NCBI GenBank assembly: GCA_001899385.1
Contig: MOYB01000005.1
Coordinates: 95,140 to 138,495, forward strand
Source of the DNA: Candidatus Caenarcanum bioreactoricola
GTDB taxonomy: Bacteria > Cyanobacteriota > Vampirovibrionia > Caenarcaniphilales > Caenarcanaceae
Direction of reading: 5' to 3'
DNA: 43,356 bases
Of the stretch, positions 10,640 to 22,648 are shown piece after piece. The first letter of the stretch is position 1. Every line of letters starts with the position of its first letter. Below the pieces are notes generated by a model. That model saw only the letters and a list, made by a program, of their open reading frames with translations. It did not search any database and was not told the DNA's origin. A program made the translations under genes and the position numbers.

Positions 10640-10721
10640 TCTTTAATTTGCTAATTCACTAGATGTTCTAAAAATTATATTATAATAGTTTTAAATTTAT
10701 ATATTTTTAAGTAAATTTTTG

Positions 10722-11360
10722 ATGAAAAAACAACAAATAAAACAACAACAACCAACTTTTAAAAAAGCAAAAGTTAATTTTAAAGAATGGTATTTAATTG
10801 TAAACAAAATAGTTAATGAAAATAAAAAAAGTTTGTCTATCTTCCGAAAGATTATTAATTTAATAAAAAAAATAGAAGAAGATCCAGAAAAAGAAATTTG
10901 TAAAGAAGTTATAAAAAGATTTGATAAAAAAAAGTTAAGTTTTGAAGATGCATATAAACTTGCTCAAGATAGTATGCAAAATATAGAAAAATTAAAAAAA
11001 GAATTACCTTCAATTTTACTTTTATTTTTTGGTGCATTGTTTGCTTTAATATTTGCAATAGTTTTTTTAATTTTAAAAATACCACATGAATTAACTATTA
11101 AAGCTTGGACTCAAAATTTTCAATGGATAAGTGCTTTAATTATTTTCTTTATGTCAATAATTGCTACAAGTATTACTTTAAAAAGAAGAGATAATTTTCA
11201 ATGGTCATTAATCACAAACTCTATATTATCACAAGCCGCAGGAGCATACGGCTCAGTCAAAAATCATGGTAAAGGAGGCTCTTTGTTTGAGGCTTTTATT
11301 GCTTTAGATCTTATAAGAAGAGAAATCAAAAAAAGTTCTGTAAAAACAAAAAAGAAATAG
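10722..11360 (+). CDS. Membrane protein of unknown function
   Basis: 212 residues from ATG 10722 (a TTG at 10719 would add one residue). The first 90 residues are basic, Gln/Lys-rich and helical. Two hydrophobic segments follow at about residues 95-120 and 130-150. The C-terminal cytoplasmic part contains SQAAGAYGSVKNHGKGGSLF, a glycine-rich segment I cannot assign, and ends in a Lys-rich tail. A TATAAT at 10681-10686 could be its -10 element. It converges on the RNase J-like gene, with the nested palindromic repeat between them. No family recognised. Confidence 0.6.
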   Translation: MKKQQIKQQQPTFKKAKVNFKEWYLIVNKIVNENKKSLSIFRKIINLIKKIEEDPEKEICKEVIKRFDKKKLSFEDAYKLAQDSMQNIEKLKKELPSILLLFFGALFALIFAIVFLILKIPHELTIKAWTQNFQWISALIIFFMSIIATSITLKRRDNFQWSLITNSILSQAAGAYGSVKNHGKGGSLFEAFIALDLIRREIKKSSVKTKKK

Positions 11361-11600: not shown

Positions 11601-13487
11601 TTAATCTTCTGATGAATTTTCATTTGCTCCAATATCTTGAATTACTATTGAAACTATTGAATTAAATGAACCGAATTTTTCTCTTACTCGTCTTTGAAAG
11701 ATTTCATTAATAAGTCTTTTATATAAACTTAGATCTTTTTGATTATTAGTAAAAGCTTTATTAAGACAATCTTTAATATCATTAGAAATCTTTTCTTCTA
11801 TTTCTTTCCAATTTGCACTTTCGGTAAAACCGCCTCCTGAAGATTTTATAGAAGGACCTGCAATTATTTTAGAATTCTTTATATCAAGTGTTAAACCTAT
11901 AAGGATAGTACCGTCTTCTCCTAATATTTGTCTTTCTTCAATAGATTTTGTATTCATTGAAACTTCTAAAGATTTGTTAAAGAAAATAGGACTACATTGT
12001 ATTTTGCCTTTTAATTCAACATTTAAACCATCAAAATCAAGAATACTCCCATTATCAAGAATAAGAACTTTTTTAGGATCTATGCCACAACTACCTATAA
12101 GCTCTGCATGAAGAACTAATTGTCTTGCTTCTCCATTACATGGAAAGAAATATTTAGGACGCGTAAGATTGTAAAGAAATTTTAATTCCTCTTTTCCTCC
12201 AAAATTATTTACATGAATATTATTATCTCTTGAAGTAAAAACTTTAATACCTCTAAAAGAAAGTTCATCAATCATACGAGTACAAAGTCTTGTTGTGCCT
12301 AAAGGTATATTTGAAGAAATTATTAATGTATCATTTTTTTCTAAAGAAATATCTCCAAAGGTATTATCTGTTAAAAGTGCTAAAGCATTAAGTATTTCAC
12401 CTTCAGTCTCAGATAATACAAAAACAAGATCTTTATTTTTAATTTTATTCTTTTTTGTATCTTCTAAAGAACAAAAGTTTACTTTTTCAATATTTTCCCA
12501 ATAGTTAAGCTTTTTCATAACAGTAAACCATTTTTGAAGTTCTTCTCCACAAAGACAAATTGTTTTGTTAGTTATTACAGAACTGTCAAATATTGCTTGT
12601 AATCTTTGCATATTACTATTATTTATAAGTAAACAGATTTTAGAATTTGCTTTTTCAAATATAGTTTCAAAAGTTTTAGATATAGAAGATTCAGAAGCAG
12701 AATAACCACTGTTTTCACAATTCACAGAAGGACTGATAAGTAAATCTACACCATCTGGATTTACAGAAGCTAATTGACTAAGATCTGTTGAAAATCTAAA
12801 AATCGGTGTTGAATGATCTATTTTAAAAGCAGAAGCATGAAAAATTTTTAATTTATTAATTTCAAGTAAAAAAGAAAAACTATCAGGACATGAGAAACTA
12901 ACAGGTAAAGCATGCACAGAAAATTTATTTCCAATTTTATAGACAGAATCACCTTCTAAAAGATTTATATTTATATCTTTAGATAATTCATCTTTTATAA
13001 GTTCATAATAAAGAGCAGGTAAATATAAATCTTTTATTTCAAGTTCATTTAAGAATTTAAGAGTGCTTCCTGAAAATTCTTCATGAGGATTACTTATTAT
13101 AAGTGCTTTTATTTTTTGTTTATTATTAATAAGATATTCTAAATTAGGTAAAAGAAGATCTATTCCACCTTTTATTCCATGAGGTACAAATCCTATACCA
13201 GCATCTATAATTAGAATTTCATTATCTTGTTCATATACCCAGCAATTACGACCATTTTCACCTTGTCCTCCAATAGGAACTATTCTTAATTTATTACCAG
13301 CAGGAGTTAATGGTCCCCCTATATTTCTTTGAACAGTAGGAGTTTGAGCCCGTTGTCCATAAGAATTATTTTGTCTATAATTTGTTCTTGAATCATCTCT
13401 ATTCTCTGTTCTAGAAGGGCTTTGTCTATAATCATTTCTTTTGAAATTATCTCTTTTAAAATTACTATTACTATTATTACTATACAT
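11601..13487 (-). CDS. RNase J-family protein with degenerate active site (probable pseudoenzyme)
   Basis: 628 residues. Residues 1-55 are an Asn/Arg-rich disordered tail. From residue 67 the sequence follows RNase J (metallo-beta-lactamase/beta-CASP): LRIVPIGGQGENGRN, IDAGIGF, GIDLLLPNLEYL, a beta-CASP region and a C-terminal domain with DGTILIGLTLD and AGPSIKSSGG. RNase J is a 5'-3' exo/endonuclease of RNA decay. Here the HxHxDH motif reads NPHEEF (133-138), the usual NHSIPD reads SFSCPD (197-202), HTGDFKFD reads HASAFKID (217-224), HVSGH reads HVNNF (425-429) and PVHGE reads PCNGE (449-453). One histidine of the main motif remains. Two-metal catalysis should be lost, so a scaffolding or regulatory partner of an active RNase J elsewhere is likely. 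The ORF itself is intact. Confidence 0.85.
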   Translation of the reverse strand: MYSNNSNSNFKRDNFKRNDYRQSPSRTENRDDSRTNYRQNNSYGQRAQTPTVQRNIGGPLTPAGNKLRIVPIGGQGENGRNCWVYEQDNEILIIDAGIGFVPHGIKGGIDLLLPNLEYLINNKQKIKALIISNPHEEFSGSTLKFLNELEIKDLYLPALYYELIKDELSKDININLLEGDSVYKIGNKFSVHALPVSFSCPDSFSFLLEINKLKIFHASAFKIDHSTPIFRFSTDLSQLASVNPDGVDLLISPSVNCENSGYSASESSISKTFETIFEKANSKICLLINNSNMQRLQAIFDSSVITNKTICLCGEELQKWFTVMKKLNYWENIEKVNFCSLEDTKKNKIKNKDLVFVLSETEGEILNALALLTDNTFGDISLEKNDTLIISSNIPLGTTRLCTRMIDELSFRGIKVFTSRDNNIHVNNFGGKEELKFLYNLTRPKYFFPCNGEARQLVLHAELIGSCGIDPKKVLILDNGSILDFDGLNVELKGKIQCSPIFFNKSLEVSMNTKSIEERQILGEDGTILIGLTLDIKNSKIIAGPSIKSSGGGFTESANWKEIEEKISNDIKDCLNKAFTNNQKDLSLYKRLINEIFQRRVREKFGSFNSIVSIVIQDIGANENSSED

Positions 13488-13623: not shown

Positions 13624-14103
13624 ATGACTGCTGAAACAAAAGAAAACTTAAATTATAATAAAACAACTTTTGTTAATGAATCAACAAGACAAAGGAATTG
13701 GTATGTTATAGATGCAAAAGACAAAGTATTAGGTCGTTTAGCATGTGAAGTTGCAAGAATTCTTAGAGGAAAAAGAAAAGCAAATTTTACTCCTCATTGT
13801 GATAATGGAGATTTTGTAATTATTATAAATGCAGAACACATTATGTTAACAGGCAAAGACAAAGAAGATAATATAAAATATTATAAACATTCCGGATATA
13901 TAGGACATTTAAAAACTGAAACTTTAGGTGAACTTTTAAAGCGTCGTCCCGAACAAGTTTTTATAAATGCAGTTAGTAGAATGCTTCCTAAAGCAACACA
14001 TCTCAGAAGCCTTTTACTAAAGAAATTAAAAGTTTATGCTGGAGATAAGCATCCACATTCTGCACAAAACCCTATTTTAATACAAGAAATATCTAATATT
14101 TAA
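13624..14103 (+). CDS. rplM: 50S ribosomal protein L13
   Basis: 159 residues with hallmark L13 segments: RNWYVIDAKDKVLGRLA, NGDFVIIINAEHI, LTGKDKEDN, YYKHSGYIGH and the MLPK loop in AVSRMLPKATH. It binds 23S rRNA early in large-subunit assembly. An N-terminal extension of about 20 residues precedes the core. It starts a rplM-rpsI-prs unit, with 11 bases before rpsI, and diverges from the RNase J-like gene. No strong Shine-Dalgarno is present before ATG 13624. Confidence 0.97.
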   Translation: MTAETKENLNYNKTTFVNESTRQRNWYVIDAKDKVLGRLACEVARILRGKRKANFTPHCDNGDFVIIINAEHIMLTGKDKEDNIKYYKHSGYIGHLKTETLGELLKRRPEQVFINAVSRMLPKATHLRSLLLKKLKVYAGDKHPHSAQNPILIQEISNI

Positions 14104-14114
14104 GGAGAAAAAAA

Positions 14115-14510
14115 ATGACAACACTTCAATATAATGGTACAGGAAGAAGAAAAAGAGCAATAGCTAGAGTTTTTATTAAACCTGGTTCTGGCAAAATTAT
14201 TGTTAATAATAAAGATGTAAATGAATATTTTTGTAATAATTTATCTTTTCTTGAAGCAATAAAAGAGCCACTTGTTAGAACAAATAATTTGAATAAATTT
14301 GACATTTTAGTAAATGTTAACGGTGGTGGAATAAAAGGTCAAAGTGATGCAGTTAAAATGGGCTTAGCAAGAGCTCTTTTAATGTTTAATTTAAGTAATA
14401 GAACCCCATTAAAAGCAGCAGGCTTACTTACTAGAGACTCAAGAGAAGTTGAAAGAAAGCATTATTATAAAAGAAAAGCAAGAAAGAGTCCTCAATATTC
14501 AAAACGTTAA
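14115..14510 (+). CDS. rpsI: 30S ribosomal protein S9
   Basis: 131 residues. Family hallmarks are GTGRRKRAIARVFIKPGSG at the start, VNGGGIKGQSDAVKMGLARAL in the middle and the basic C-terminus ending SPQYSKR, which reaches the P-site tRNA. A strong AAGGAG lies upstream of ATG 14115. The rplM-rpsI pairing is the standard bacterial arrangement. Confidence 0.98.
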   Translation: MTTLQYNGTGRRKRAIARVFIKPGSGKIIVNNKDVNEYFCNNLSFLEAIKEPLVRTNNLNKFDILVNVNGGGIKGQSDAVKMGLARALLMFNLSNRTPLKAAGLLTRDSREVERKHYYKRKARKSPQYSKR

Positions 14511-14525
14511 TTATTTTTATTTTTT

Positions 14526-15494
14526 ATGTTTTTATCTCCAAGATCCGCTGTTAAATTATTTTCAGGAAGAGCTAATTTACCTTTATCTGAAGAAATTGCA
14601 AAAGTATTAAATATTAAACTTGGAGGAATAAAAATAAGTCCTTTTTCAGATGGGGAAATCTATCTTAAAATTCTTGAAAGTGTAAGAAAAGACGATATTT
14701 TTATTATTCAACCAACTAGTCCACCAGTAAATGAGAATTTAATGGAACTTCTCATTATGATTGATGCACTTAAAAGAGCAAGTGCAGGAAGTATAACAGT
14801 ACTTATACCTTATTTTGGTTATAGTAGACAAGACAGAAAAGCCTCTGGTAGAGAACCTATTACCTCAAAACTTATAGCAGATCTTTTAAAAACAGCGGGA
14901 GCAGATCGTATTGTTTGTATAGATCTTCATGCAAATCAAATAATGGGCTTTTTTGATACTTTAGTAGATCATTTAAGTGCAATACCAGTACTTGCAGAAT
15001 ATATTAAAAAGCTTGATCTTAAAGATTTAGTAGTAGTGAGCCCTGATGTCGGTGGAGTTGCAAGAGCAAGAACTTTTTCTAAAATATTAGGAGATGCACC
15101 TTTAGCAATTATCGATAAAAGACGTTCTCCAAATCAACAAAATTATGTTGAAGTTTTAAATATAATAGGAGAAATTGAAAATAAAACTTGTGTATTAGTT
15201 GATGATTTAATTGATACAGCAGGTACAATTTCAAAAGCAGCAGCACTATTAAAAGAAAAAGGAGCAGTTGAAATTTATGCTTGTGCTTCACATGGAGTAT
15301 TATCTGGAAATGGTTTGAAAAATATTCAAGAATCTTGTTTGAAAGAACTTATAATTACAGATACTATAATTCTTTCAGAAGAGAAAAAAATAAATAAAAT
15401 AAAACAATTAACAATTGCGCCTTTATTAGCAGAAGTTATTAAAAGAATACATTCAGGGGAAAGTGTTAGTTCCATGTTTATTCAAGGGAATTAA
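14526..15494 (+). CDS. prs: Ribose-phosphate pyrophosphokinase (PRPP synthetase)
   Basis: 322 residues, normal class I length. It makes PRPP from ribose 5-phosphate and ATP for nucleotide, histidine and tryptophan synthesis. Visible signatures are KLFSGRANLPL near the start, SPFSDGEIYLKI, PYFGYSRQDRKASGREP (ATP-binding flexible loop), CIDLHANQIMGFF, SPDVGGVARA and the PRPP-binding loop VDDLIDTAGT. It lies 15 bases after rpsI without its own Shine-Dalgarno (the upstream bases are almost all T), so it may depend on read-through from rpsI. Confidence 0.97.
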   Translation: MFLSPRSAVKLFSGRANLPLSEEIAKVLNIKLGGIKISPFSDGEIYLKILESVRKDDIFIIQPTSPPVNENLMELLIMIDALKRASAGSITVLIPYFGYSRQDRKASGREPITSKLIADLLKTAGADRIVCIDLHANQIMGFFDTLVDHLSAIPVLAEYIKKLDLKDLVVVSPDVGGVARARTFSKILGDAPLAIIDKRRSPNQQNYVEVLNIIGEIENKTCVLVDDLIDTAGTISKAAALLKEKGAVEIYACASHGVLSGNGLKNIQESCLKELIITDTIILSEEKKINKIKQLTIAPLLAEVIKRIHSGESVSSMFIQGN

Positions 15495-16662: not shown

Positions 16663-17991
16663 TTAATATTCAATAATACTTAGATTATAATGATTTTGTT
16701 TTTTATTAACTTCAAAATACATTCTCATCATAAGTGCATCTGCATAATCAGGACTTTTCCCTAAAGCTATTTTTATATTTTCTTTACTTATAACTGCAAG
16801 TTTGCTATCTTTATCAAAATCTTTATCTTTTATATATTGAAATTCTTTTTTTATTTCTTCTTCTATTAAAGGAGAAGTATTTATTTTTATTTTTTTTTCT
16901 TTTACAAAATCTGCAAACCTAAAATAACATTGACTTCTTAAATTTCTATAATTAGAATTTTTATTATTATTTATAGGAGAAGCATTTCCAATAAAACCTC
17001 TACATTTTAAAATATCTACTACTCCACCACCTACACCATCTTCATCAACTATTACATTTGACAGTGCAATTTTATATTTTTCTCTGAATTGATTTATTAA
17101 TTCTGCTGTTTTTGTTACAAGTGTTATATCATAAGATTTTATTTCTATAACTTCAAATCCTTGCCATATAATTATTATTGTTTTATCTATCCCTTTTCTT
17201 GCTACATCACAACTCAAATAAAATTCTTTTTCTTTAATAATACAATTACTAAAAAGATCATTTATATCATTATAATCAAATAATTTATTTGGATCATCAT
17301 CATATTCCCAATTTCCAAAAAGAAGTCTTTCTTTAGTATTTTGATCTTTTATTTTATAAAGATTATTAATATAATGTTTTGAAATATAAGGATTATCAGC
17401 AGCTAAAGATTGCACAAATTTTTTATTTTCATTTAATTTATTGTCTTTCCAAGGTTTGTAAAATTCACTATAAACCCAATTTTTAGCAGGATTACATGTC
17501 ATAAGTAATTTAGGAGTTAAATTAAATTCATCTAATTTATAACGAATACGAGAATTTATAATTTCTTTACATTTATGAGTAATTTGATTACATTCATCTA
17601 TAAATGCTCCACAGACTTCTATGCTTCCCAACTCATCATAATTAGGATCTGAGGGTTTATGTGCAAGATCTTTTAAAAGTATTTGAGAATTATTATTAAA
17701 AGTAATAGTGCCAGAACTAATATTATATTTATAATCTGTTTTATCAATTTCAAGGATTTTAATAAGATCAAAAAAACTATTAAGAGTAGTTTCTTTTAAA
17801 GTCTTTAAAACAGATCTTCCCATAATCCAACGACTATCTGGATATTTAAGACAAGAACTTATAAGCCAGAAACAACCACATTGACTTTTACCTCCACCAG
17901 CGCCTCCTCCAAATAAAACTTCATTTATATTAGGATCTTCAAGATATTTTAAAGTTAATGATTGTTTTTCTGTTAATTTGAAATTTTCCAT
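16663..17991 (-). CDS. Phage-type terminase large subunit, solitary
   Basis: 442 residues, the full two-domain TerL layout. ATPase: Walker A GGGAGGGKS (28-36), Walker B GAFIDE (128-133) and coupling motif TCNPA (165-169). RNase H-like nuclease: D262 in CDVARKG, DED at 316-318 in VDEDGVGGG, and D415/D418 in SPDYADA. In tailed phages and gene transfer agents TerL pumps DNA into capsids and cuts it. No portal, capsid, protease, small terminase or integrase gene is near; neighbours are bioB (convergent) and an EF-hand protein (divergent). The base composition matches the neighbourhood. It could be an old prophage remnant, part of a dispersed gene transfer agent, or a domesticated nuclease. Confidence 0.88.
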   Translation of the reverse strand: MENFKLTEKQSLTLKYLEDPNINEVLFGGGAGGGKSQCGCFWLISSCLKYPDSRWIMGRSVLKTLKETTLNSFFDLIKILEIDKTDYKYNISSGTITFNNNSQILLKDLAHKPSDPNYDELGSIEVCGAFIDECNQITHKCKEIINSRIRYKLDEFNLTPKLLMTCNPAKNWVYSEFYKPWKDNKLNENKKFVQSLAADNPYISKHYINNLYKIKDQNTKERLLFGNWEYDDDPNKLFDYNDINDLFSNCIIKEKEFYLSCDVARKGIDKTIIIIWQGFEVIEIKSYDITLVTKTAELINQFREKYKIALSNVIVDEDGVGGGVVDILKCRGFIGNASPINNNKNSNYRNLRSQCYFRFADFVKEKKIKINTSPLIEEEIKKEFQYIKDKDFDKDSKLAVISKENIKIALGKSPDYADALMMRMYFEVNKKQNHYNLSIIEY

Positions 17992-18433: not shown

Positions 18434-19615
18434 ATGCTTGATTTAATTATAATAGGCGGAGGTATAGCAGGTCTTACTTCCGCTTTTTTTGCAAAGAAAC
18501 AAAAATTAAATTTTTTATTATTAGAAGCTTCTAATAAACTTGGTGGTTCTATAAGAACAAAAAATATAAACAATCAAATTATTGAATGTGGGAGTACTGG
18601 ATTAAGAGCAGGATCTGTTATTAAAGAAATAATCAAAGATTTATCTTTAGAGATTTTAACTAGAAATAAAAAAGCAAATAAACATTTTATTTATTATAAA
18701 GATTCTTTATATAGTCAAAATCAAATATTAGGTTTCAAGGCTTATTTAGACTTAATAGGAAAAGTATTCTTTAGGGTTAAAGCTTTAAAAGAAAAAGAAA
18801 GTATAAAAGAATTTGCTGATAGAGTTTTAGGTCAAGAAATTAGTGAAAAAGTAATATCTGCAATGATTAATGGACTTTATGCAGGAGATTATAGTATTTT
18901 ATCTAAGAGTCTTTTTCCTAAGTTTTTAAAATCTAATTCTTTAATATATTTTAAAAAAGGATTAAATGAATTTACTGACTCAATGGCTGATTTTATAGAA
19001 CATAATAATATTAAATTAAATACAGAAGTTTTAGAAATTCAAGAAAATAATAATTATTTTGAAGTAATAACTAAAGATTTAAAATTAGAAGCTTCTAAGA
19101 TAATTTTAGCAGTGCCTGCATATAAAGCTTCTAAGATCTATGTTAAATATCTATCTAGACTTTCGGAAATAGAATATTTAGCTGTAATAAATATAGCTTG
19201 TGAAATTCCTTATAAACAAGCTTTTGAGAATTATGTAGGTTTTCTTTCTTCAAATAATTCAAATACAGAATTACTTGGACTTATACATTCTTCTAATCTC
19301 TTTAAAGTTAATAATAAAATGATTTTAAATTGTTTTTTAGGAGGACATAAAAATCCTCAAATAATACAAAAAACAGATCAAGAGATTATTTCTATAATAA
19401 AAACCGAATTAAATAAAATTTATAATTTTAATGAAATAAATATTTTAAATATAGAAAGATGGCCACAAGCAATGCCTCAATATAAAATTAATCATGAAGA
19501 TATTTTTAAAGAAATTATTTTGCCTAAAGGTCTTTATTTATGTGGGAATTATTCAAAAGGCATTTCAATTGAAGAAGTTGTAAGGCTTTCAAAAGAGGTA
19601 TTATTAAAACTATAA
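18434..19615 (+). CDS. FAD-dependent oxidase of the protoporphyrinogen/coproporphyrinogen oxidase (HemY) type
   Basis: 393 residues. The N-terminal dinucleotide-binding motif IIGGGIAGLTSAFF is followed by LLEASNKLGGSIRT, the second FAD-contact segment of the amine-oxidase superfamily. The C-terminal LYLCGNYSKGISIEEVVRLS matches the closing FAD-binding segment of HemY-type oxidases, where GNY/GDY plus a Gly-rich turn is typical. The likely reaction is oxidation of proto- or coproporphyrinogen in heme synthesis. It is shorter than standard HemY (about 460), so another flavin amine oxidase cannot be excluded. No other heme genes are nearby. It has no Shine-Dalgarno and follows the EF-hand gene by 3 bases. 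Confidence 0.72.
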   Translation: MLDLIIIGGGIAGLTSAFFAKKQKLNFLLLEASNKLGGSIRTKNINNQIIECGSTGLRAGSVIKEIIKDLSLEILTRNKKANKHFIYYKDSLYSQNQILGFKAYLDLIGKVFFRVKALKEKESIKEFADRVLGQEISEKVISAMINGLYAGDYSILSKSLFPKFLKSNSLIYFKKGLNEFTDSMADFIEHNNIKLNTEVLEIQENNNYFEVITKDLKLEASKIILAVPAYKASKIYVKYLSRLSEIEYLAVINIACEIPYKQAFENYVGFLSSNNSNTELLGLIHSSNLFKVNNKMILNCFLGGHKNPQIIQKTDQEIISIIKTELNKIYNFNEINILNIERWPQAMPQYKINHEDIFKEIILPKGLYLCGNYSKGISIEEVVRLSKEVLLKL

Positions 19616-19660
19616 AAATATGAGATAATTTATTAAAAATTAAAAGATTTAATAATTTTT

Positions 19661-20638
19661 ATGATTTCTATAATAATGCCTGTTCATAATGAAGAAAGAT
19701 TTATAAAAGAAGCTATAGAATCAATTATTAATCAAACTTATAAAGATTGGGAGCTTATAATTATTGATGATGAATCAACAGATAAAAGTCCTCTTATTAT
19801 AAAAGATTTTACAGAAAGAGATTCTAGAATTAAATATGTTAAAACTGAACGACTTAAGAGTCCTGCAAAATTAAGAAATTTAGGTTTAAGAAACGCAAAA
19901 GGACAATATATTAGCTTTCTTGATAGTGATGATTTGTTTTATGAAAATTCTCTTGAATTGTTATTAGAAAATTTTAATAAAGATGAAAGATTACAAGTAA
20001 TTACAGGTACAAAGTTTTATATAGATGAAGACGGCTCAGAATGCGAAAAACAATTTGTTTTTGATGAAAATAAACTTGATATAAAGAATATAAATAAGAA
20101 TTTTAATTATTTAAAATCATGGTGGGGGACTTTAGGTTCTTGTATGATTAAAAGAGAATTCTTTGATGAAATAGGTTCTTTTAATGAAGATTTAACTACT
20201 AGTGATGATGGGGAATTTATTTTAAGAGCTTTTGTTAATGCTTTTTCAAAAATAAAATTTATTCCTAAATATATATATAAACAAAGATTTAAAAATGGAA
20301 GTCTTACTAAAAATAGTGAAAGAGCATTAGAAGTACTTGGAAATAGAATAAAAGCTTATGAACTTTTTCTTAAAAATCCTAAAATAGCTTCTTGGAATCT
20401 TAATATTTCTAAAATTTATCTTAATACTTATTTGCATTATGCAAAACAATGGTTAAAACTTAAAGATTTTAAAATAGCTTATTTAATAATTGGTAAATCA
20501 TTGTCTGATCCAAATATAAAATTTTTACAAAAGGCACGAATATTTACAAGATATATAAAATTAAAACTTAGAGATTCATTAATTCATTTATTTCCAAAAT
20601 TTGATGAAAGATTTTTAAATAAATTCTTTTTTAGATAA
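19661..20638 (+). CDS. Family 2 glycosyltransferase
   Basis: 325 residues with a GT-A fold. The N-terminal IIMPVHNEERFIKEAI, the nucleotide-binding IIIDDESTDKSP and the DxD motif in FLDSDDLFYENS mark the GT2 family; SDDGEFILRA provides the likely catalytic acidic region. The C-terminal 100 residues are basic and helical. Such enzymes add sugars from nucleotide sugars to polysaccharide, LPS or protein acceptors on the cytoplasmic face of the membrane. The acceptor is unknown. No Shine-Dalgarno is visible; the upstream 20 bases are A/T only. Confidence 0.88.
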   Translation: MISIIMPVHNEERFIKEAIESIINQTYKDWELIIIDDESTDKSPLIIKDFTERDSRIKYVKTERLKSPAKLRNLGLRNAKGQYISFLDSDDLFYENSLELLLENFNKDERLQVITGTKFYIDEDGSECEKQFVFDENKLDIKNINKNFNYLKSWWGTLGSCMIKREFFDEIGSFNEDLTTSDDGEFILRAFVNAFSKIKFIPKYIYKQRFKNGSLTKNSERALEVLGNRIKAYELFLKNPKIASWNLNISKIYLNTYLHYAKQWLKLKDFKIAYLIIGKSLSDPNIKFLQKARIFTRYIKLKLRDSLIHLFPKFDERFLNKFFFR

Positions 20639-20649
20639 TAAAATATTTT

Positions 20650-21618
20650 ATGTATAATCTTGAAATAAATTATTCTTTTGAAGATCAATATATAAATAGA
20701 CGACTTGATATTTTTCTTGCGGAAAAGACTGGCTTAAGCCGCTCCCAAATTAGACTTAATATAAAAGAAAAAAGAATTTCTGTAAATAATAAAATTGCTG
20801 AAAAAGCAGGACTACCTCTTAAACAAAATGATATTATCTCTGGTTTTTTATGTCTTCTACCTGAAAAAGACGAAGATATTTTGCCGGAAGATATTGAAAT
20901 AGATATAATCTATGAAGATAAAGATCTTATAGTTCTTAATAAGCCTGCTGATTTAATAGTTCATCCAACTGATTATTTAAAAGAAGGCACACTGGTAAAT
21001 GCTTTATTATATAAATATGCTAAAGAACTTTCTGATTTAGATGAAAGTCGTCCCGGTATAATCCATAGATTAGATAAAGATACTACAGGACTAATGCTTG
21101 TAGCTAAAAATAATATTGCACATGCACATCTATCAAAACAATTAGCACAAAGAACATTAAAGAGAACTTATTGGGCAGTAGTAGACGGTTTGTTATCTGC
21201 AAATGAAGGTAGTATTTGTGCAAGTATAGGCAGAAATCCTAGAGATAGAAAAAAAATGGCTGTATTGCCTGAAAATTATGTTAAAAGTCGTTATGCTTTG
21301 ACAGAATGGGAATTGCTTGAGGAATTTCAAAAACATTCTCTTGTTAAAATAAATTTGCAAACAGGAAGAACCCATCAAATAAGAGTACATTTTTCTTATA
21401 TTAAACATCCTGTCTTAGGTGATCCAACTTATGGAAATAAACATAGTAGAAATATTTTAATTAATAGACAATGTTTACATGCAAAAGAAATAAGATTTAT
21501 TCATCCAACTAAAGAAAAAGAAATGCATTTTGAATGTGAATTACCCGACGATTTCAAAGAAGTACTTAAAGTTTTAGGTTCTAATTTTATCCAGAAGCCC
21601 ATCTCCGAAGTTTCCTAG
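20650..21618 (+). CDS. RluA/RluD-family 23S rRNA pseudouridine synthase
   Basis: 322 residues with an N-terminal S4 RNA-binding domain (about residues 17-62, RRLDIFLAEKTGLSRSQIR) and a pseudouridine synthase domain. The catalytic aspartate is D142 in GIIHRLDKDTTGLML. RTLKRTYWAVVDG and TGRTHQIRVHFSY are further signatures. The length and S4 domain fit RluD, which modifies helix 69 of 23S rRNA, but RluC-type specificity cannot be excluded. Its 3' end overlaps the convergent gene at 21587 by 32 bases. Confidence 0.9.
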   Translation: MYNLEINYSFEDQYINRRLDIFLAEKTGLSRSQIRLNIKEKRISVNNKIAEKAGLPLKQNDIISGFLCLLPEKDEDILPEDIEIDIIYEDKDLIVLNKPADLIVHPTDYLKEGTLVNALLYKYAKELSDLDESRPGIIHRLDKDTTGLMLVAKNNIAHAHLSKQLAQRTLKRTYWAVVDGLLSANEGSICASIGRNPRDRKKMAVLPENYVKSRYALTEWELLEEFQKHSLVKINLQTGRTHQIRVHFSYIKHPVLGDPTYGNKHSRNILINRQCLHAKEIRFIHPTKEKEMHFECELPDDFKEVLKVLGSNFIQKPISEVS

Positions 21619-22648
21619 TCCAACCTTTTATAGTATCAGTTGCCCTTTCTGTCCGTGAAATTTTTTCAGTTGAATCTGGATATTTTGCTGTTAAAAGTGC
21701 TTTACCTGTCCCGTAAATTGAAAGTCTATTTATTATAGCTTCAGGACTTGGCATTTTACCATTTCTATGTCTTTCTTGTATAACAGCAATAGCTACATAT
21801 AAAGAACCTTCTGGAGAATCAAGATTTTCTATCATTTCAAGAGTTGCAGTATTTTTGCTAAGTCTATCTAAATCAACAGTAGAAGGATTTTGATGAGTAA
21901 AATAAGCTCTAAGATAAGAAAGTGTCTGTCCTCCAATTTCATTTAAGGTTTGAAAATATAATTCTAAATTTTTTCGTTTATCAATAGGTATTTTTGATTC
22001 TTTTGAAGGGTTATTCATTATTTCTCGAGCTTCTTCTGCCCTATCAAAAAGTGTATTAGGCATATTTCCTAAAGATAAATTTAAAATATTTGAATTTAAT
22101 ATAGATTCTATTTTAGCTTCAAGTTCTTTATAACTGCTTTTTGCTTCAGGAATTGAAAGTAAAGGTAATTCTTCTTTTTGTCTTTTTAAATCTATTTTCT
22201 CTTTAAGATTTTTAGCGGTTTCGCTTTGTAAAGCTTTTTTACCTCCAAAAACCAAAGCTAAGATCGCACCTATAGCAAGAATTACTTTTAATATATTCCC
22301 CATTACATTAGAAGTAAATATTGTTTTTACTTTAGTCCAAAAATTTTCTTTAGTAGTAGAAGAATTTTGTGTTTGTGTTTTTACTGTTTCTGTTTGTCTT
22401 ATTTTATTTTTTATCATTAAAAATTGACTTTCTAATGCTTTTTTTCCTTCAGGAGTTTTTAATGCTTGAGAAATAGCTTTTTTTTCTTCTTCAGAAAATC
22501 CTTTTAAAAGCATGCTTATTTCTTCTTTTTTAAATTCTAATGTTAATAAAAAATTATTTATTTCACTTTCTATTTCAGGAGATGCTCGAAAAGTATTAAC
22601 GCTTCGAAAAGTCCCATGAATTTGACTTATTGCTGCTAAAGGAGTCAT
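21587..22648 (-). CDS. Single-pass membrane protein of unknown function
   Basis: 353 residues. Residues 1-100 are helical and charged. A transmembrane helix lies at about residues 115-135 (VMGNILKVILAIGAILALVFGG). The rest is soluble and helix-rich, with a segment SLYVAIAVIQERHRNGKMPS near residue 285 and a basic C-terminus (KGWTRKLRRWASG). I recognise no family. A TATAAT (22659-22664, minus strand) ends only 10 bases before the ATG, so the transcript would have almost no leader, and there is no Shine-Dalgarno. It diverges from the lipoprotein gene at 22867. Confidence 0.6.
   Translation of the reverse strand: MTPLAAISQIHGTFRSVNTFRASPEIESEINNFLLTLEFKKEEISMLLKGFSEEEKKAISQALKTPEGKKALESQFLMIKNKIRQTETVKTQTQNSSTTKENFWTKVKTIFTSNVMGNILKVILAIGAILALVFGGKKALQSETAKNLKEKIDLKRQKEELPLLSIPEAKSSYKELEAKIESILNSNILNLSLGNMPNTLFDRAEEAREIMNNPSKESKIPIDKRKNLELYFQTLNEIGGQTLSYLRAYFTHQNPSTVDLDRLSKNTATLEMIENLDSPEGSLYVAIAVIQERHRNGKMPSPEAIINRLSIYGTGKALLTAKYPDSTEKISRTERATDTIKGWTRKLRRWASG

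Follow-up and report, generated by a model that had tools for sequence, protein, structure and literature searches.

The window analysed here, a stretch of 43,356 nucleotides from the genome of Candidatus Caenarcanum bioreactoricola, encodes a full-length RNase J homologue in which six of the seven catalytic zinc ligands are replaced. It belongs to a single clade of degenerate RNases J that is found across families of the class Vampirovibrionia (Melainabacteria), nearly always in genomes that also carry an intact RNase J. We consider it probable that this class-wide pseudo-RNase J is a structural or regulatory subunit working with the active RNase J, convergent with RNase J2 of Firmicutes and with the eukaryotic proteins CPSF100 and INTS9.

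The window gene and its metal site

The degenerate gene reads on the minus strand from an ATG to a stop codon without any internal stop (Table 1). Its product matched B. subtilis RNase J1 (3zq4) with a phmmer E-value of 1.1e-68, and both Pfam PF22505 (RNase J beta-CASP) and PF17770 (C-terminal domain) were above their gathering scores. The protein is a member of the RNase J family by descent, with a homology that spans the MBL, beta-CASP and RNase J C-terminal domains and that, judged from sequence, is beyond doubt. Like RNase J1 or the single RNase J of other bacteria (B. subtilis, T. thermophilus, M. tuberculosis, cyanobacteria), it has these three domains at full length and in the predicted fold. 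Unlike them, it is without the metal-ligand set and much of the 5'-phosphate pocket, and it misses the curated NCBIfam cut-offs, with 296 versus 400 bits for RNase J and 322 versus 820 for RNase J1.

Table 1. Features of the degenerate RNase J gene and its product (window coordinates; ligands in B. subtilis J1 numbering).
Feature	Position	Strand	Basis
Pseudo-RNase J, P0001, 628 aa	11601-13487	-	Open frame; RNase J by sequence and predicted fold
N/R/S-rich tail, residues 1-65, predicted disordered	13293-13487	-	pLDDT <50 for residues 1-54; tail lengths in relatives
NPHEEF (133-138) for HxHxDH: H74>N, H76 kept, D78>E, H79>F	13074-13091	-	Alignment with intact paralogue
SFSCPD (197-202) for NHSIPD: H142>F	12882-12899	-	Alignment with intact paralogue
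HASAF (217-221) for HSGDF: bridging D164>A	12825-12839	-	Alignment with intact paralogue
HVNNF (425-429) for HVSGH, motif B / 5'-phosphate pocket: S366>N, G367>N, H368>F	12201-12215	-	Alignment
PCNGE (449-453) for PxHGE: H390>N	12129-12143	-	Alignment with intact paralogue
D407 codon, invariant in degenerate copies, Asn in most intact	12267-12269	-	Aligns with Mtb Asp353
R455 codon, invariant in degenerate copies	12123-12125	-	Aligns with Mtb interface residue Arg401
W560 codon, C-terminal domain, invariant in degenerate, not in intact copies	11808-11810	-	Alignment
RNase J C-terminal domain PF17770, residues 516-616	11640-11942	-	Pfam

A second RNase J is present in the same genome (G000:C1:144159-145904), 29% identical to the degenerate copy. 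All of its motifs are present (HGHEDH, NHSIPD, HSGDF, HVSGH, PAHGE), and every ligand is intact. The two genes are unlinked; they lie on different contigs and share no operon. The genome itself comprises 1.84 Mb in 67 contigs, is 91% complete and has a contamination of 1.34%. The original prediction, made on the window alone and giving no strand for the gene, had described a full-length RNase J homologue of 628 codons that had lost nearly all catalytic metal ligands, and had pointed to a search for an intact HxHxDH copy elsewhere in the genome. Each of these points was borne out: the frame, phmmer and Pfam agree on the homologue, the intact copy exists, and the five motif replacements originally quoted are all exact, the alignment with the intact paralogue being gap-free inside the motifs.

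The zinc ligands are H74, H76, D78, H79, H142, D164 and H390. In B. subtilis J1, one zinc is held by H74, H76, H142 and D164 and the other by D78, H79, D164 and H390 (PMC5383250). The window protein keeps only H76 (its H135); D78 is changed to Glu, and the other five to N, F, F, A and N, so that the set of a catalytic RNase J (HxHxDH, the distal His, the bridging Asp and the motif-C His, for two metals) is not found in it. The His of motif B (H368) is a Phe, and S366 and G367, which with it contribute to motif B and the 5'-phosphate pocket (PMC7864078, PMC10119312), are replaced as well. Residues in contact with the 5'-phosphate and the RNA are eroded at many places in the clade, S300, Q301 and G367 being lost in most degenerate copies. 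At the Arg position of the TFASxxHR motif a basic residue, Arg or Lys, is kept.

The other degenerate copies have part of these losses in common. H74 (replaced by N or S), H142 and the bridging D164 are gone from every degenerate copy that covers those positions, while H76, D78 (often Glu), H79 and H390 are retained or lost depending on the lineage. Outside the window's family several ligands persist in some copies, for example in family f6 (SHDSSSHHH). On the simplest reading of the alignment, the common ancestor would already have had neither an intact first metal site nor the bridging Asp, and erosion of the second site would have followed.

The degenerate proteins might instead be weak ribonucleases that use one metal or a changed coordination. 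We regard this as improbable. S. epidermidis J2 is indeed active with a single metal ion despite its lost ligands (PMC7864078), and H76, D or E at 78, and H79 are present in many of the degenerate copies from other families than the window's, with H390 in some; weak activity may persist in these ligand-retaining copies. However, the activity of E. faecalis J2 requires the equivalents of H74 and H76 (PMC5383250), and the first of these is Asn or Ser in each degenerate copy that spans it. H142 and the bridging Asp are always lost, the window protein retains one ligand of seven, and the possibility that shifted residues supply new ligands, a check that had been asked for, gave no conserved candidate in the degenerate clade. 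Among invariant or near-invariant positions in the catalytic domain and at C-terminal sites, the only residues that differ from the intact copies of the class are D407, W560 and Tyr217, the last being a His in the window protein.

Distribution and descent

The search covered 97 genomes of the class, and the copies of both types found there were aligned. Intact and degenerate copies coexist in 47 of the 52 genomes that bear any RNase J, as J2 and J1 do in Firmicutes; two of the remainder had the degenerate copy only and three the intact copy only, all of them drafts of 54-93% completeness. Each of the five genomes sampled from the window's family has a degenerate orthologue, and four other families also have degenerate copies. 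Since the other 48 genomes with a degenerate copy show related ligand losses, the window gene is not a product of chance or of sequencing error. Elsewhere in the Cyanobacteriota there was one strong RNase J match per genome, intact in all those aligned. A search of genome contigs with the window protein as query returned only two ordinary clostridial RNase J loci.

The remaining 45 of the 97 genomes have neither copy. RNases J are confined to families f1, f2, f4, f6 and f7, and both are missing from f3, f5, f8 and f9. This joint absence from whole families is no more than suggestive. It may correspond to only one or two loss events, which makes the co-occurrence weaker than the genome counts suggest.

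RNase E/G was found nearly everywhere, and full-length RNase Y only in f5. Families f3, f8 and f9 are devoid of RNase Y as well as RNase J and, of these enzymes, seem to depend on RNase E/G. The photosystem I proteins PsaA and PsaB were found in genomes elsewhere in the phylum and in none of those sampled from the window's class, Synechococcus being the only control that matched; the class is therefore non-photosynthetic.

In a maximum-likelihood tree of 64 sequences, built with the ligand columns masked, all 24 degenerate copies formed one clade (support 100/100), separate from the clade of the class's intact copies (97/91). The best tree joined the degenerate clade with these intact copies and with photosynthetic cyanobacteria (99/99). 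The degenerate clade branches broadly as the intact clade does, f2 and f7 being set apart from f1, f4 and f6, and this is the pattern that vertical inheritance would give. The degenerate copy probably goes back to a single ancient RNase J duplication, no later than the base of the non-photosynthetic class, and has been passed on beside the active copy since. As for the timing of this duplication relative to the split from photosynthetic cyanobacteria, AU tests accepted both placements (p 0.22 and 0.50).

The degenerate gene could also be an orthologue of Firmicutes RNase J2 gained by horizontal transfer, both being degenerate paralogues of RNase J. An AU test that included a single J2 sequence did not reject their union (p 0.21, with a log-likelihood 17 lower), so that the case for a separate origin is made by the best tree together with the ligand pattern. 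Both of these speak against the transfer, which we hold to be very unlikely: S. epidermidis J2 is placed in that tree beside Firmicutes J1 (99/97), away from the degenerate clade, and the sets of lost ligands are opposite. Firmicutes J2 keeps H74, H76 and H142, loses D78, H79 and H390, and has D164 changed to Glu (S. epidermidis J2 has HHHAHEHHQ at positions that are HHDHHDHHH in intact enzymes). In the degenerate clade, by contrast, H74, H142 and D164 are missing in every case, the loss of second-site ligands came afterwards and differs between lineages, and the J2 pattern was not encountered in it.

Selection, fold and conserved residues

Selection was estimated by the Nei-Gojobori method on unsaturated within-genus pairs. 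The dN/dS values ranged from 0.018 to 0.105 for degenerate pairs and from 0.018 to 0.084 for intact pairs; the G001/G004 pair, from the window's family, gave 0.076 and 0.053, respectively. These values are far below 1 and close to those of the active copies, as the original prediction of a gene under purifying selection required. The reading as a maintained pseudonuclease is well supported by the second, intact RNase J of the genome, by the search for replacement ligands, which found none that are conserved, and by the low dN/dS; the loss of catalysis itself would follow from the missing ligands. Of the refuting conditions set beforehand, neither shifted ligands nor relaxed selection was seen.

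The intact frame, the conserved clade and the low dN/dS rule out a decaying pseudogene, a frameshift or an artefact. The window copy has the longest branch of its family (0.95), as a gene en route to loss might; the open frame of 628 codons, the orthologues in every sampled genome of the family and in four further families, the dN/dS and the low contamination of the genome leave such decay, or an error of assembly or contamination, with a negligible likelihood.

An AlphaFold2 model was built with 40 degenerate sequences. Its mean pLDDT was 80.7, with values above 90 through most of the core. In a Foldseek search with this model, the integrative model of B. subtilis RNase J1/J2 (9a5v) and RNase J1 (3zq4) came out on top, and each of the best 42 matches was an entry for an RNase J (E 1.9e-49 to 2.5e-27). 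The two-domain core was superposed on J1 and J2 structures with target TM values of 0.88-0.91, at about 2.5-4 A. The window protein is thus predicted to keep the RNase J fold.

The disordered N-terminal tail has a different status. It is 65 aa long in the window protein and reaches 87-128 aa in the family's four further genomes, whereas in the other degenerate copies it mostly measures 0-25 aa. It had been proposed that this Asn/Arg-rich tail helps the protein to function. The tail is real; being confined to the window's family, it is a family-level addition and cannot be the core of a shared function. The longer tails (L005-L008), disordered and rich in N, S, G and R, resemble RNA-binding low-complexity regions, and among degenerate copies this feature is seen in the window's family only.

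Several residues are invariant across the degenerate copies, among them D407, R400, E433, K436, R455, G452-E453 and W560. Of the 50 intact copies in the class, 47 have an Asn at position 407, and W560 is absent from the intact copies. In the M. tuberculosis (Mtb) RNase J, Arg401 contacts Asp353 at the dimer interface (PMC10119312). By the range of the match to 7wnt, which has equal length on both sides, and by the register of motif C, D407 corresponds to Asp353 and R455 to Arg401, and each of the 47 degenerate copies that span the two positions has both residues. This conservation would fit a protein that must still dimerise. W560 may at most hint at a heterodimerisation through the C-terminal domain in the style of CPSF100/INTS9.

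Candidate function and known counterparts

Under the favoured reading of a subunit, the protein would retain the RNase J fold over its full length with a catalytic site no longer able to hold two metal ions. It would enter a hetero-oligomer with the active RNase J and hold the complex together, shaping the exonuclease activity of its partner or the access of substrates without itself cutting RNA. Support for this partnership is indirect, coming from the co-occurrence of the two copies and from the precedent of J1/J2 in Firmicutes. Points against it are the separate loci of the two genes, the absence of a neighbour of the degenerate gene that is shared across the class, the several ligands kept in some copies of other families, and the weak activity of Firmicutes J2.

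The protein could alternatively have become an independent RNA-binding or RNA-sensing protein, for instance as a homodimer that puts the former RNA channel to use, and could serve in RNA turnover, in ribosome biology or in some other pathway. Such a role is less likely, though it has arguments in its favour: the two genes share no operon, the change of Asn to Asp at 407 and the Trp at 560 are fixed as a new function would predict, the TFASxxHR Arg remains basic, and a long disordered tail has been gained in the window's family. Against it stand the nearly strict coexistence with the active copy, the joint absence elsewhere, and the erosion of much of the 5'-phosphate and RNA-contact set.

The known cases provide a background for the subunit reading. 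In S. aureus, active-site mutants of J2 have no phenotype whereas its deletion has one, and the authors proposed that J1 gives the active site and J2 structure (PMC3937233). E. faecalis J2 active-site mutants bind J1 like the wild type (about 80-90 nM), and J2 activity is required for one phenotype (PMC5383250). Firmicutes J2 (RnjB) has a broken HxHxDH motif, yet weak activity (PMC7864078, PMC5383250); like the window protein, it is a second, degenerate RNase J encoded away from the intact one. Among eukaryotic beta-CASP proteins, INTS9 and CPSF100 are inactive subunits that dimerise with INTS11 and CPSF73, respectively, and the HxHxDH of INTS9 is broken similarly to that of the degenerate RNase J (PMC7980224). 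They too are catalytically impaired paralogues kept under selection beside an active one. They differ in belonging to another beta-CASP branch with another domain layout, and in that dimerisation is demonstrated for them, whereas we infer it for the degenerate RNase J.

Degenerate RNase J partners are already known from Firmicutes J2. The case described here, extending through a class of Cyanobacteriota, with a more thorough loss of the site and an opposite order of ligand loss, appears to be independent. No report of the degenerate clade, nor any that joins Melainabacteria and RNase J, was found in the literature searched, which covered few subscription papers and makes this absence weak evidence. 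A bolder version of the subunit reading, which could equally well prove right or wrong, is that this non-photosynthetic class independently evolved a two-subunit RNase J with one obligate non-cutting partner, reached by the opposite decay route, both subunits being lost together, and with a tail in one family that could recruit RNA or decay factors.

If true, Firmicutes, a cyanobacterial class and eukaryotes each added an inactive sister subunit to an active beta-CASP nuclease, independently of one another, and pairing with a dead sister becomes testable as a general control of these enzymes. The opposite routes of metal-site decay in two independent cases would offer a natural experiment showing which features a scaffold subunit has to retain. 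The case also carries a warning for annotation, as these degenerate proteins are likely labelled RNase J despite their lost catalytic residues.

The neighbourhood of the gene was compared by tblastn of 17 window neighbours and by an all-against-all comparison of flanks, and no conserved neighbour of the degenerate gene was found across families; the flanks in f6 are conserved within f6 only. In the window, a plus-strand frame of 213 aa (10719-11360) adjoins the degenerate gene, with no Pfam match and no counterpart in the flanks of the relatives examined. On the other side, rplM-rpsI (L13, S9) and a ribose-phosphate pyrophosphokinase gene (13624-15494, plus strand) are divergent from it, an arrangement not seen in the relatives examined. 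Further on, the neighbours tested at 18434-22648 contained no phage domains, and the large subunit of a phage-type terminase (Terminase_3, 4e-15) is encoded on its own at 16663-17991 on the minus strand, flanked by a radical SAM/BATS gene and an EF-hand protein.
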